A stretch of DNA of 64,000 nt from Akkermansiaceae bacterium. Its GTDB lineage: Bacteria; Verrucomicrobiota; Verrucomicrobiia; Verrucomicrobiales; Akkermansiaceae. The stretch spans positions 1 through 64,000 of the forward strand of contig SUVL01000007.1 of assembly GCA_015062005.1 (NCBI GenBank), read 5' to 3'. Position 1 is the stretch's first letter; each line of letters opens with the position of its first letter. Below the pieces are notes generated by a model, which was given only the letters and a program-made list of their open reading frames with translations, was not told the origin of the DNA and did no database searches. Shown one piece after another: positions 15,702-60,658 of this stretch. The position numbers and the translations under genes are program-made.

Positions 15702-16655
15702 ATGCTCATCATCGTCGAAGACCAGCTCGGCACCCGGCTGGACCAGTACCTCGCCGCCCAGCTGCCGGAGCTCTCCCGCGCCCGCATCCAGGCCCTCATC
15801 AAGGAAGGCGAAATCACCGTGAACGGCAAATCCACCAAGGCCAAAACCCCGGTGGAGCGCAGCATGCGCATCGAGGTGAACATCCCCGAGCCCGAACCTG
15901 CCGAAGCCCAGCCGCAGGATATCCCCATCTCCGTGCTCTTCGAGGATAAGCACGTCATCGTCATCGATAAGGAAAGCGGCATGGTGGTACACCCCGCCGC
16001 CGGCAACCCGGATGGCACCCTCGTGAACGCCGTGCTCTTCCACTGTGGCGATTTATCCGGCATCGGCGGCGTGGAGCGCCCCGGCATCGTCCACCGGCTC
16101 GATAAAGACACCAGCGGCTGCATCGTGGTCGCCAAGAACGACCAGGCCCACCTCTCCCTCACCACCCAGTTCGCCGAGCGCGACACCGGAAAAATCTACC
16201 TCGCCGTCGTCCAGGGCTGCCCGAAGGAACCGAAAGGCACCGTCTTCACCAACATTGGCCGCCACCCGGTCAACCGCCTCAAAATGGCCGTGGTGAACCC
16301 CGGCAGCGGCAAACCCGCCATCACCGACTGGGAAGTGCTGCACTACGATGCCGCCACTGATTCCTCGCTCGTCATGTGTACCCTGCACACCGGCCGCACC
16401 CACCAGATACGCGTCCACATGCTGCACCTGGGCCACCCCCTCATCGGCGACCCCATCTACGCCCACCCCCAGCGGCAGAAAGCCAGACCCGGCCGGCTCA
16501 TGCTGCACGCCTGGCGCCTCGCCTTCAACCACCCGGCAGATGGCCGGCGCATCGCCATCCAATCCCCCATTCCGGCGGAGTATACCCCCTGGCTCATCGG
16601 CCACGAGCTCCCCGAGTGGGAAGAAACCCGGACAAATTATTGCTCCGGCAGTTAA
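15702..16655 (+). CDS. RluA-family pseudouridine synthase
   Basis: GIVHRLDKDTSGCIVVAKN, HTGRTHQIRVHMLHLGHPLIGD. Confidence 0.93.
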   Translation: MLIIVEDQLGTRLDQYLAAQLPELSRARIQALIKEGEITVNGKSTKAKTPVERSMRIEVNIPEPEPAEAQPQDIPISVLFEDKHVIVIDKESGMVVHPAAGNPDGTLVNAVLFHCGDLSGIGGVERPGIVHRLDKDTSGCIVVAKNDQAHLSLTTQFAERDTGKIYLAVVQGCPKEPKGTVFTNIGRHPVNRLKMAVVNPGSGKPAITDWEVLHYDAATDSSLVMCTLHTGRTHQIRVHMLHLGHPLIGDPIYAHPQRQKARPGRLMLHAWRLAFNHPADGRRIAIQSPIPAEYTPWLIGHELPEWEETRTNYCSGS

Positions 16656-16685
16656 AGAATATTGCCTTGACGGAACGTCAAATTC
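16632..16685 (+). repeat. dispersed repeat, copy 1 (second copy at 60555-60608)
   Basis: ATTGCTCCGrCArTTAAAGAATATTGCyTTrACGGAACGwCAAAT shared by both loci. Confidence 0.75.
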
Positions 16686-16686
16686 C

Positions 16687-16884
16687 AATCCCTCATGTGC
16701 TAGCATGAGGGATTTCATACATGCCACAGGCATGTATTTCATGCACTGCGATAGCAGTGCTTTCATACCGCTGCTCGCAGCGGTATTTACATACTTGCGA
16801 TAGCAAGTATTTCATTGAGCGACCCGTCTCGGCGTAGCTTTAGCGGAGACAGAAGCGACTAGTTACCGCTGCATTAGCAGCGGT
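16687..16884. repeat. array of perfect short inverted repeats with ATTTCAT-type spacers
   Basis: Palindromes 16687-16714, 16717-16737, 16743-16760, 16765-16786, 16791-16810, 16865-16884. Confidence 0.85.
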
Positions 16885-16889
16885 ACTGC

Positions 16890-17061
16890 CATCGCGCCGG
16901 CAGATGGATGCCGGAAAGCACTCCTTCACAGCCACCGGGCGGTTCAGCTTCTCATCCCACGCGCGGTACAGCACCCCGAACCCGCCGCGCGACGCGGCCG
17001 CCTGCAAGCGATAATGTCCCAGCAGAGTACCGGGCGGCAGCGCATCCACAAGGCCATCCAT
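16890..17061 (-). pseudogene. N-terminal fragment of a serine/threonine protein kinase
   Basis: LLGHYRLQAAASRGGFGVLYRAWDEKLNRPVAVKECFP = Gly-rich loop and VAVKE lysine; rest of kinase absent, tail encoded by hairpin repeat. Confidence 0.75.
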
Positions 17062-19750: not shown

Positions 19751-21601
19751 ATGGAACAGTTCACCAATTCTCTGCTCGCCCTTTCCAAATTGCATAGCAA
19801 GCTCACCAATACAGAGGAGAGCGAAGATTTCGTCACCAACATCAAAGCATGGGGTGCGGGCATCTTCCGTCTCATCGTCATGGGTGAAATCAAAAAGGGA
19901 AAATCATCCTTTATTAATGCCTTGCTTGGCGTGAATGAGCTCGTCCCGACCTCATCCGATATAGCCACCTCCACTGTCTACAAAATCCACTATGGCGCTA
20001 AAAGCAGCTACAGAGTGCACTTTGAACCCGAAACCAGGCAGAAGCCGATTGCCATTACAGCCGATGAAGTAGAAGACTATGGCACAGAAAAAGGCAATCC
20101 ACTCAACAAGAAGCACGTGGATTTCATCGAGGTTATCTCCGACGCAGAACTGCTTAAAAGTGGTTTGGTCATCATCGACACCCCCGGGCTCGGCGGACTT
20201 TTCAAAGAACACAAAAAAATCACATGGCAGCACGTGCCTAAAGCGGATGCCGTTTTCTTTGTGACTGATAGTGTTGAGTCTCCCATAGGCATGGAAGAAT
20301 TGGTACATCTTTCCACCGTCCAGAAAATTACTCCGCACATCTTCTTTGTTCAGACCAAAGCGAGCGTGGTCAGTGAAGAAGCCGCAATCGCCAGAAAAAA
20401 CAACAATCTGGAAATCCTTTCCCGCCATTTAAAAGTTAATAGTGCCAGGATTCCATACTTCATCACAGATGCCGTATTAAAGCAAGAATCGGCACAATGT
20501 CAAGATATGGAATTGCTGCAGATGAGCGGTTACCCAGCCCTCCTTCATTTCATGCAGAATGGGCTCATAGCCAAGCAAAGGCAACTCATTAAATCAAAAG
20601 CAATCCGCTATGCTGCCCCCATGCTGGAAGCCCTCCAGGCTGCTCTCTCGCAGCGTAAAGAAATCCTGCAGGCGGATTCCACAGAAAAACAACAGGCTAC
20701 TCAAAAAGCGATAAAACTGGCTCAGGATGAACTCCGCGAATGGCAGCAATCCCGGTTGCCGCAGCTACAGAAGGAAATTAACAGAGGCTTCAAACGCATT
20801 CAGTCAGATTGTGAAGAATACTGTGCCCAGCTCAGACCGAATGGGGAAATGCAGGCATCTCTGGAAAATGAAATCAACAAGGCAACCTCTACCAAGAATC
20901 TTGGTGAGATAATCGCCACCATTCAGGAAAAACTGCCAGAAACCGCTTCTGTCTGCATCACAGAAGTTCAAAAACGATACGACCAGGGAATCAAGCAGCT
21001 ATTCGAAGAACTCACTTCAACAGAAAACACAGAAAGCGAAACTTCTACAGAAATCTCTCAGCAATCTCAGTTTCCAAACACAAATGCCTTCGCCTCAGTA
21101 TTAAAAGGAATAGAAAAGGGGGATGCAAAATGGAATCAGGTTAAATCTATTGCCATGGGTGGCACCATAGGTGGCAATATCGGGGGGCTCATAGGGGGTG
21201 CCATAGGTAGTGTCATTCCCGTCATTGGTACTGCCGTCGGAGGTTTTGTTGGTGCCGCTATCGGTGCTATGTGGGGCGGAGCCGTTGCCAGCGAAGAACG
21301 AGCAGAACATGCTTTGGACTCAGCCAAAATGCAAGCCCGGAACGAACTTGTCAAAAACATTTCCTCTATATATAACAACATCTCATTCACTCTGCGCAAA
21401 CTCAATGAGCGGTATAGTCAGCACGTTGAAGACTCACTCCAGACCGCTCTTACGCAACGCTCTCAAGAGCTTAACAAAGCCTATCAATCAATCGTTGACC
21501 GAAGTAAAATGGATGCAAAGGCTCTCGCAGAGGCAAAGACAGAGCTAAAACAAGATGAGGAACAACTGCATGCCATACTGCGAATTCTGAAAGCACAATA
21601 A
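19751..21601 (+). CDS. dynamin-like GTPase 1 with glycine-zipper membrane segment
   Basis: GEIKKGKSSFINALLG (G1), IIDTPGLGG (G3), FVQTKA (G4-like); GGTIGGNIGGLIGGAIGSVIPVIGTAVGGFVGAAIGAMWGG. Confidence 0.88.
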   Translation: MEQFTNSLLALSKLHSKLTNTEESEDFVTNIKAWGAGIFRLIVMGEIKKGKSSFINALLGVNELVPTSSDIATSTVYKIHYGAKSSYRVHFEPETRQKPIAITADEVEDYGTEKGNPLNKKHVDFIEVISDAELLKSGLVIIDTPGLGGLFKEHKKITWQHVPKADAVFFVTDSVESPIGMEELVHLSTVQKITPHIFFVQTKASVVSEEAAIARKNNNLEILSRHLKVNSARIPYFITDAVLKQESAQCQDMELLQMSGYPALLHFMQNGLIAKQRQLIKSKAIRYAAPMLEALQAALSQRKEILQADSTEKQQATQKAIKLAQDELREWQQSRLPQLQKEINRGFKRIQSDCEEYCAQLRPNGEMQASLENEINKATSTKNLGEIIATIQEKLPETASVCITEVQKRYDQGIKQLFEELTSTENTESETSTEISQQSQFPNTNAFASVLKGIEKGDAKWNQVKSIAMGGTIGGNIGGLIGGAIGSVIPVIGTAVGGFVGAAIGAMWGGAVASEERAEHALDSAKMQARNELVKNISSIYNNISFTLRKLNERYSQHVEDSLQTALTQRSQELNKAYQSIVDRSKMDAKALAEAKTELKQDEEQLHAILRILKAQ

Positions 21602-21613
21602 GGGCATATACAT

Positions 21614-23227
21614 ATGAACACAGAAAGCACACTGGCAGCCAACAGGATACATCTCACCTACAGAGATTCTCTCCTGCAGTTGGCTGATGCCATGGGCAAA
21701 TACGATTTCTTGAACAAAAAAGAGCAAGAGCTGCGTGTGCTGGCTGCTAATCTGCAATCTCCGTTTAATGTAGCTGTTTTCGGCCGCATGAAAACAGGCA
21801 AAAGTACACTTATTAATGCGCTCATCGGCAGGCAACTCGCTATTACCGGGGTAGAAGAGGCAACCGCCACCATCAACCGTATCTCGTACGCCTCCGGAGA
21901 ACAGCTGGATACTTTTACTGTTCACTGGCAGGACACCCAGCCAGAAACTTTCCCCATAGAGCAACTTCAAAAAGATTGGACAGGCAAATCCTCAGATGTG
22001 TTGAACCGGGTTCGACGCGCCGCATGGTTGGAGCTCTTTTCTGATGCTCCAGCATTACGGGATATCCACATCACAGACACCCCCGGTACCGGGGCTGATG
22101 TTGCAGAACACGAAACCATAGCTAAACAATTCATTAACGGTCAAGAGGCTGACGCTTTGCTTTATGTGTTTTCTCCAACAGGAAGAGAAAGCGACGAATC
22201 GGACTTGGAGGCATTCCGCAGCGGATGTCTGCCTGGCTCTTCGTTAGATAACAGCATAGCAGTACTTCATAAATGGGACCACATTTACTGGAATGAAGAT
22301 AACTGGGAGTCTATTGTTTCCAAAGCAAATCGCGTTCACGGTTTTATGCAGGACCTGGTTTCTTGCGTTATCCCCATCAGCGCGCCATTAGGCCTCATTG
22401 CCAAAACAGCTCCTGAATCATTCTGGCAAGACTGCCGGGAACTACTGTCCTCGTTTACCGATGAACTGGCACTCAAACGTGCACTTCTGGCTCATAGTCT
22501 CTGGAAAAGGAATCCTCAACAACTGGCACTTTCTTCAAGGGCTGAACAGCTGGGCTGTCCCTGGAGCAGTTTCTGTGTATTGTTGCGACACCTCTATCGG
22601 AATCCGGGAACAGATGAGGCGAGCGCCATACTGGAGCTTAGCGGCATACTCAGATTAGAACAACTGTTGGATAAACAAATCTTTTCCGTCAGGTCCGTCA
22701 TTCAGCAAAAGCAGAACTGTGCCCGAGCCCGCAAACTGCTGGATGACGTCTACCGGGTCATCAACAGCGAACAGGAAAGGCAACAGGATAACATCAGCAT
22801 GATGGAAAAAATCTACTCCCTGATTGATGAATCTGAAATCGATGCCAGACGATGGCTGGATAACCTGCAGGGAACGGCAAAGTGGCAACATCAGCAGCTG
22901 GCGCAGGACTCTCTCAGTCTGGATAGATTACGCATCCGCATCCGCGATTGGGCAGATGCCATTACCAATGCGCACGACCTCATCCCCTGGCTTAAAGACA
23001 ATGACGGACTCCCGCTTCAACGGGAAGCCGCGGATTTATGCGTACGCATTTTGAAATCGCTTCTTCCCAATGGGGAATCCACAACAGACATTTCACGAGA
23101 AACAATAGTACAACTCCTGCCTGCAATTGCCAGACTTGCGAACCTCCCCTGCGTTTCAGATAAACACAAGGCTGAACGTTTACGCAACTGTCTCATGTAC
23201 TGGGGGTCGCAATCCAATCATTCCTGA
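21614..23227 (+). CDS. dynamin-like GTPase 2
   Basis: VFGRMKTGKSTLINALIG (G1), ITDTPGTGADVAEHE (G3), VLHKWDH (G4). Confidence 0.85.
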   Translation: MNTESTLAANRIHLTYRDSLLQLADAMGKYDFLNKKEQELRVLAANLQSPFNVAVFGRMKTGKSTLINALIGRQLAITGVEEATATINRISYASGEQLDTFTVHWQDTQPETFPIEQLQKDWTGKSSDVLNRVRRAAWLELFSDAPALRDIHITDTPGTGADVAEHETIAKQFINGQEADALLYVFSPTGRESDESDLEAFRSGCLPGSSLDNSIAVLHKWDHIYWNEDNWESIVSKANRVHGFMQDLVSCVIPISAPLGLIAKTAPESFWQDCRELLSSFTDELALKRALLAHSLWKRNPQQLALSSRAEQLGCPWSSFCVLLRHLYRNPGTDEASAILELSGILRLEQLLDKQIFSVRSVIQQKQNCARARKLLDDVYRVINSEQERQQDNISMMEKIYSLIDESEIDARRWLDNLQGTAKWQHQQLAQDSLSLDRLRIRIRDWADAITNAHDLIPWLKDNDGLPLQREAADLCVRILKSLLPNGESTTDISRETIVQLLPAIARLANLPCVSDKHKAERLRNCLMYWGSQSNHS

Positions 23228-30898: not shown

Positions 30899-31142
30899 AA
30901 CAAAATGCCGCCCCCACGGCACCATGCCGCAGAAGCGGCAGCCGCATTATATGCTCCCGCCCCAAGCACCGTCAAGAAAAACATTCAGGCCGCCTGACGA
31001 CAAGCGCCAAGCGGCCTTAAAGTTAATGAATAACGCCCGGGACCCCTCCCGGGACAAGGCGTTTCCACCCTGCAACCGTATTCAAGCATAGCACCACACC
31101 ATTGTCAAGCAAAAACAGAACCTAAGGAGTTTGCACCCCACA

Positions 31143-31166
31143 CGTGTCCCAAAGATTTGGGACACG
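31143..31166. promoter_or_regulatory. 11-bp perfect palindrome CGTGTCCCAAA-GA-TTTGGGACACG
   Basis: Direct reading; half-site repeated at 31334-31346. Confidence 0.5.
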
Positions 31167-31414
31167 AGGATTTACGGTTGACAATTTACGATTGACGAAT
31201 TGAAAGTTAGCGACTTACGCCGATAGAGACACAAAATGAAAGCTTACTGCCGATGGTGAGGCGTCTGATACCCCACTACGAATTTTCACACAGAATACTA
31301 TGCCTTTATCTTGTTTAGGACTATTTTTCCATAATCTTTGGGACACATATGGCTTGCACCGAGAGTGACAAAGCCAAAATTACGTGCTTGCACCGGCATG
31401 CAATATATGATAGT

Positions 31415-60554: not shown

Positions 60555-60608
60555 GATAAAATATTGCTCCGACAATTAAAGAATATTGCTTTAACGGAAC
60601 GACAAATG
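60555..60608 (+). repeat. dispersed repeat, copy 2 (see 16632-16685)
   Basis: ATTGCTCCGACAATTAAAGAATATTGCTTTAACGGAACGACAAAT. Confidence 0.75.
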
Positions 60609-60658
60609 GGAATTTAACAGAATTGACAATTGACGAGTGACTATTGACAATTGAAGAA

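Follow-up and report, generated by a model that had tools for sequence, protein, structure and literature searches.

The array of six hairpins at positions 16687-16885 of the window, i.e., the whole 64-kb stretch of DNA that was analysed, was identified with good confidence as the orphaned arm of an element from a family that carries S23 genes. Full members of this family consist of two inverted arrays of spacers and hairpins, which surround either a short non-coding core or an S23 gene. With less assurance, the fuller explanation is probable as well: that the window array is a decayed arm of a gene-less member, and that the family has been copied or inserted with the aid of S23 and has partly spread by hitch-hiking in an element with terminal inverted repeats (TIR). 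Support at the level of sequence comes from the multicopy dispersal of the arrays, a gene-bearing parent, the retention of stems, presence and absence at the same sites in congeners, inversion of element interiors and breakage within a kinase gene. That S23 itself drives the mobility of the elements is a tentative proposal, somewhat short of an even prospect.

Structure of the array and its flanks

The original prediction of six perfect hairpins in about 200 bp was confirmed. These six are among the 37 perfect stems of at least 7 bp in the window, in which every other 200-bp stretch holds at most two, and the array folds with a z-score of -9.2 as RNA and -11.6 as DNA, values equalled by 0 of 200 shuffles. 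The features of the array and of its neighbours are as follows:

15702-16655, plus strand: rluD-type pseudouridine synthase gene, left neighbour (ORF of 317 aa)
16635-16684, unstranded: dispersed repeat of about 50 bp (TTATTGCTCCGGCAGTTAAAGAATATTGCC...AAATTCCAAT) abutting the array (query 334-391 matches)
16687-16714, unstranded: hairpin 1, stem of 11 bp, outermost unit of the arm by comparison with sister copies
16717-16737, unstranded: hairpin 2, stem of 9 bp, TTTCAT spacer on either side
16731-16817, minus strand: match to the full Rfam model RF01706, Gut-1 RNA (38.1 bits, gathering score 50, E 6.9e-6)
16743-16760, unstranded: hairpin 3, GCACTGC-GATA-GCAGTGC, stem of 7 bp, TTTCAT spacer on either side
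16765-16786, unstranded: hairpin 4, ATACCGCTGC-TC-GCAGCGGTAT, stem of 10 bp, followed by TTTACAT
16791-16810, unstranded: hairpin 5, ATACTTGC-GATA-GCAAGTAT, stem of 8 bp, followed by the inner landmark TTTCATTGAG
16823-16851, unstranded: 29-bp dispersed palindromic repeat (CCGTCTCGGCGTAGCTTTAGCGGAGACAG), an insertion in the sixth unit relative to sister copies
16864-16885, unstranded: hairpin 6, TACCGCTGC-ATTA-GCAGCGGTA, stem of 9 bp, innermost unit
16897-17061, minus strand: remains of the 5' part of a protein-kinase gene (MDGLVDALPPGTLLGHYRLQ...PASICRRDG), truncated where the arm has its inner edge

As predicted, the stems vary from hairpin to hairpin, but the spacer, which had been taken as constant, is only nearly so, running in the order TTTCAT (three times), TTTACAT and TTTCATTGAG. 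The comparison with a CRISPR in reverse holds for the differing palindromes and the near-constant short motif, but as a visual analogy only. As a CRISPR array proper the window array was rejected, since identical repeats with unique spacers are absent and the palindromes differ. About 53 bp separate hairpins 5 and 6 and hold the dispersed palindrome, which is missing from L005, L009 and other sister copies and has repeated matches of its own in congeners (query 138-179). Hairpin 6 is found in most copies of the array, which in the window ends at about 16896, within the truncated kinase gene.

The left neighbour, which we take from its translation to be rluD, has homologues in congeners at contig places unlinked to the right flank of the array. 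On the right, a longer open reading frame homologous to the kinase remnant is present in G018 (L116), and G010 (L120) has a flank homologous to it. The remainder of this gene, i.e., the rearrangement partner, was not found in the own draft genome, where only paralogue fragments of 71-75% were detected. The left and right flanks of the window copy were unlinked in the relatives searched, nearly all of which are draft genomes, and contig breaks may partly account for this. The unlinked flanks and the kinase portion missing at home indicate that the window copy marks a point of deletion or rearrangement. The proposed role as a recombination hot spot finds circumstantial backing in the joining here of flanks unlinked elsewhere and in the element interiors inverted in some species.

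The dispersed repeat at 16635-16684 has many matches in G005 and G011 (86-92%, query 334-391), a similar stretch in L017, and a second copy within the window near 60562-60610 (read at 60556-60617). The latter adjoins a solo heptamer array at 60621-60654 (4.9 copies of AATTGAC), which has no S23 gene nearby and is followed by a long palindrome. A search around the window copy revealed no promoter-like or terminator-like site, leaving a promoter or terminator reading of the array unsupported. No rRNA match was found in the 64-kb window either, the copy lying between rluD and the kinase remnant. Elsewhere in the window, two adjacent genes at 19751-23227 resemble dynamin-type GTPases.

Related arrays and the gene-bearing parent

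In the own genome (G000; 2.43 Mb in 51 contigs), related arrays occur at about 20 loci. Complete copies (L005, L006, L009, and L011) have a core of about 105 bp with an array on one side and its inverted counterpart on the other, as compared to the single arm, devoid of an S23 gene, of the window copy. At C42:30454-31207 of the same genome, two inverted TTTCAT arms enclose a gene of PF05635, the S23 family of 23S-rRNA intervening-sequence proteins (23S-rRNA-IVP, TIGR02436), which are four-helix bundles.

At the site of this C42 element (site B) in congeners, orthologues with arms and an S23 gene, the gene in opposite orientation, are present in G190, G188, G195, and G012; G041 and G018 have arms without S23, G010 a remnant, and G011 remnants in which a TIR element is nested. 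On the S23 tree, the proteins of site B fall into a single clade, which is most simply explained by one inherited element with a flipped interior, and such flipping would be the expected outcome of recombination between inverted arms. At site G, between the same gene neighbours, some species carry S23 elements whose arm sequences differ, others have arrays without a gene, and others show nothing that can be recognised. Similar arrays in related genomes, on whose existence the original prediction had staked itself, are thus present, and among the proposed roles that of a non-autonomous mobile element is the best supported, by the approximately 20 loci, the presence and absence at the same sites of congeners, and the gene-bearing parent. 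Against the reading as S23 elements counts that S23 is wholly missing from several congeners. A target-site duplication of the S23 elements themselves was undefinable in the relatives compared, in which empty sites are too diverged.

Several edges and sites of these elements have peculiarities of their own. At site E of the own genome (contig C35, L027 1398-1890), the start of the downstream folC-like gene is apparently encoded by the array (ATGACCCAGTCAATTGTCAATAGTCAATTGTC...), which may have replaced the N-terminus of the folC-like protein. At the right edge of L026, on the side of site B that faces clpB, the element's outer end and the adjacent clpB coding end form a palindrome (GAAGACGGCAAAATCATCTGAAGACGATTTTGCCGTCTTC), whose two halves apparently change together between species. 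At site A of G018 (L187), a single 21-bp hairpin (GTCCGGGCTGGTGCCCGGACT) stands where relatives carry an S23 element, and is either what an element left on collapsing or the original terminator, in the loop of which the element came to be inserted.

This terminator-like hairpin, together with the several palindromes nested or adjacent in the window array, would fit a mosaic of REP-like palindromes and host transcription terminators lacking any identity as an element. Such a mosaic is hardly credible and is largely refuted by the mirrored multicopy organisation: unit order is fixed, the spacer is near-constant, a second arm mirrors the first, copies are nearly identical, and an S23 gene or a common 105-bp core lies between the arms.

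Contribution of a TIR element

Carriage in a TIR element explains some, not all, of the array copies in the own genome. With one mismatch allowed, 72 TIR ends (CACACGTGTCCCAAAG) were counted in G000, against none for a reversed control pattern, and many of them are paired about 196-232 bp apart. The array copies L009, L011, and L013 are bracketed by these ends, accompanied by 8-bp direct repeats (CATTTTTT, GTCCACAC, and GAAAAAAA). A short element of the same 72-end family was also observed at 31139-31352 of the window (CACACGTGTCCCAAAG ... CTTTGGGACACATATG), with a small array of the 7-bp type (ATTTACGATTGACGA) at 31170-31201, near its left end.

Given the numerous, often paired ends and the copies enclosed by them and by 8-bp duplications, the arrays could be passengers of a conventional MITE with CACACGTGTCCCAAAG ends, moved by a transposase in trans and linked to S23 only historically. 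The amplified copies of the own genome may indeed owe their spread largely to the TIR element, which counts against spread driven by S23. As an account of the arrays in general, however, passage in a MITE is rather unlikely: the array would not fit into the short TIR copies, the arrays of the window, L005, L002, and L003 have no TIR alongside, G010 has 19 array matches and only 3 TIR ends, and none of the gene-bearing elements at sites A, B, E, F, and G is edged by such a TIR.

Inverted arms at S23 loci across bacteria

The association of S23 genes with inverted arrays extends beyond the window copy and its sisters. Most S23 genes of the own genome, which has nine, and of the genus lie between arrays that are mutually inverted and differ from element to element, and a minority lie mainly between direct repeats. 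Inverted-arm scores of the nine own genes were 32-203, compared to means of approximately 20-25 for most mismatched comparisons, and those of L021 and L029 were only marginally above the mismatched ones. S23 genes were present in 95 of 146 genomes sampled across the phylum, in whose other families degenerate tandem repeats with a unit of about 7 bp make up the arms.

A scan of named genomes across phyla, which retained the best 80 matches to a single peptide pattern and does not represent unbiased sampling (metagenome-assembled drafts predominate), gave 61 S23 loci with enough flank, from Bacteroidota, Bacillota, Planctomycetota, Acidobacteriota, Pseudomonadota, and other groups. In 70.5% of these loci, the upstream arm matched the reverse complement of the downstream arm with a score of at least 28, and such arms are mostly tandem repeats of about 7 bp. 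Distal flanks of the same loci reached this score in 0% of cases (Mann-Whitney p 2e-17) and arms taken from different loci in 2.5% (p 7e-29). Repetition peaked at lags of 7, 14, and 21 beside the S23 gene, with no such peaks further away. Approximately 20-30% of the cross-phylum loci lacked clear arms, perhaps by decay or because the arms lie beyond the 300-bp windows. For the collection scan, a wide alignment of S23 proteins proved too divergent and a closer protein set was used.

Inverted arms were also found at six plasmid S23 loci, four of them cyanobacterial. In a Nostoc edaphicum plasmid, TAGGGAG/CTCCCTA arrays lie on both flanks of the S23 gene. On plasmid AZO_p2 of Azospirillum lipoferum (L293), an S23 intervening sequence within a 23S rRNA gene has inverted arms of the 7-bp type (AGGACGGATGACAG); this intervening sequence is unannotated in the gene table. 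A search of open-access full text returned no paper that joins S23 genes to flanking arrays or to Gut-1.

S23 proteins also gave sub-threshold matches to bAvd (7 of 25 members) and Avd (8 of 25), the latter a protein of diversity-generating retroelements. As a relative of Avd, S23 could act with a reverse transcriptase from another locus, which would copy the folded RNA of the element, but this retro-mobilisation is very unlikely, because no PF00078 reverse transcriptase was found in the drafts G000, G010, G018, and G021, which have 9, 16, 7, and 7 S23 genes, respectively. Dependence on reverse transcriptase was rejected given its absence from these S23-richest draft genomes. We know of no catalytic domain in S23, and no element was seen to move; both points likewise count against mobility driven by this protein. 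Among its relatives of solved structure are 2rld and XCC0516 (2gsc), the latter reported as a ring of five four-helix bundles, as cited in PMC4990558.

Retention of stems and coordinated change of spacers

The arms of the own and related genomes were split at their spacers into 173 spacer-bounded units, which comprise 99 distinct sequences. At least six consecutive outer pairs were present in 87% of the units, compared to 1.1% after shuffling. Stems that are retained while their sequences change argue for selection or copying by which folding is preserved, be it in RNA or in single-stranded DNA.

The spacers, in turn, change in concert. At site A, counting both arms, the spacer is GATATCGT in 8 of 8 cases in G000 and in G010 and in 7 of 8 in G005, and it is GATTTCGT in 8 of 8 in both G012 and G188, whose S23 proteins are sisters on the S23 tree. 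Coordinated change on both arms requires either conversion from unit to unit or selection for a common recognition site, and this rewriting of every spacer unit is an unusual evolutionary pattern in need of a mechanism. Gene conversion could account for it without S23, which counts against the S23 model. When congeneric S23 loci were labelled by the number of hairpins in their flanks, hairpin-rich flanks required 4 changes on the S23 tree and 300 shuffles of the labels never fewer than 12, indicating that in this sample the type of arm follows the descent of S23.

Relation to Gut-1 RNA

At gathering score, the only RNA families in the window were two tRNAs; a permissive search added Gut-1, whose model the array matches on the minus strand over positions 1-77 of 77. 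TTTCAT reads as ATGAAA, the Gut-1 motif, on the opposite strand, and the window array has three hairpins separated by AUGAAAU, one spacer being TTTACAT. Its 38.1 bits lie below the gathering score of 50, probably because of this TTTACAT spacer and the longer stems, whereas L026, a gene-bearing arm of the own genome, reaches it with 50.7 bits, and the arms in L208, L198, and L044 exceed it (53.9-61.8 bits). Under stricter filters, a scan of 291 genomes of the phylum revealed matches with E<=0.001 in ten and above the cut-off in two. One control genome also had a sub-threshold match, and thus weak Gut-1 matches alone are untrustworthy.

The suggestion that the array is a structured RNA therefore stands by half: the Gut-1 match and the stems kept as stems speak for it, but stems on their own fit RNA and single-stranded or cruciform DNA alike. 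Weinberg et al. 2010 (PMC2864571) include Gut-1, marked "human gut only", among the probable non-cis-regulatory RNAs. Following that view, and in keeping with the strong retention of stems and the folding of the array as RNA (z -9.2), the hairpins might act only as a functional non-coding RNA that happens to be repeated. We consider this improbable, since the units form inverted pairs that enclose S23 genes or short cores, at sites differing from one relative to another, the window copy has no promoter-like or terminator-like site nearby, and related arrays have other spacers or plain 7-bp repeats.

Proposed mechanism and implications

In the proposed mechanism, S23 would bind the repeated units of spacer and stem in its own arms, as folded RNA or single-stranded DNA, and the hairpin-folded arms would aid copying or insertion of the element. 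S23 would act in cis and, on gene-less copies, in trans; a host enzyme, or one from another element, would do the cutting and joining. Part of the spread in the own genome is ascribed to hitch-hiking in the TIR element with its 8-bp target duplications, inside which several arrays lie.

The mirrored layout around most sampled S23 genes suggests that a class of mobile element has been overlooked, in which the orphan Gut-1 RNA would find its place. A broader reading, to which we give close to even chances, is that, in bacteria at large, S23 (TIGR02436) genes are carried as cargo by a distinct and unrecognised class of mobile element bounded by inverted arrays of short repeated units, and probably confer its specificity. 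Most lineages would have tandem repeats of 7 bp as units, the present lineage has spacer-hairpin units, and both arms of each element would evolve together. Gut-1 RNA, the intervening sequences of rRNA and perhaps part of the intergenic heptamer repeats would belong to this class or be what is left of it.

To our knowledge, S23 has solved structures and no assigned function, and it had looked mobile only inside 23S rRNA. Its position between mirrored arrays turns the question of its role into a direct test of binding and mobility. The orphan Rfam family Gut-1 gains a host lineage and a genomic context, and a possible origin is offered for intergenic heptamer repeats, which are currently explained separately.

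Comparison with known systems

For Gut-1, the S23 intervening sequences, MITEs and CRISPR arrays, the window copy lacks at least one defining feature of each, and its sisters have several of them. REPIN/RAYT systems, in which a single-gene element lies between inverted palindromic units and has non-autonomous palindromic derivatives, resemble the S23 elements; they differ in that S23 is not a Y1/HUH transposase and that the present arms are arrays of different hairpins or heptamers. With MITEs the arrays share small size, multiple copies, non-autonomy and palindromic sequence, and several copies lie inside a TIR element. The window array itself, however, has neither conventional TIRs nor a defined target-site duplication, both of which are present in the element enclosing L009, L011, and L013.

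Gut-1 shares with the array the three hairpins of variable stem and the constant AUGAAAU spacer, but it was published as an isolated non-coding RNA from environmental gut sequence (PMC2864571), whereas the Gut-1 stretch here is part of a longer array that occurs in inverted pairs around an S23 gene or core. Heptamer repeats have been described in Xanthomonas (GGGAATC) and Nostoc (GGGGA(C/T)T; PMC4692102), in Geobacter as paired heptanucleotide sites (PMC2700814), and in Beggiatoaceae (TAACTGA; PMC4679880). As far as the descriptions in these sources extend, they too are intergenic tandem units of about 7 bp, often in inverted pairs in Xanthomonas and Geobacter, but are explained as regulatory or quadruplex-forming and carry no link to S23.

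A further parallel is with the S23 intervening sequences in the 23S rRNA of Coxiella and Leptospira, long proposed to be a mobile or selfish element, in which an S23 gene likewise lies between terminal inverted repeats (PMC4990558). The window copy has no S23/PF05635 gene, no inverted repeats at both ends and no insertion in 23S rRNA; the C42 member of its family has the gene, and full sisters have both repeats. In contrast to the rRNA form, the present elements lie between protein-coding genes, are bounded by arrays in place of a single stem, vary in their arms from copy to copy and have gene-less derivatives. We regard them as a form of the S23 intervening element, and there is a substantial likelihood that the class as a whole merits a name of its own.
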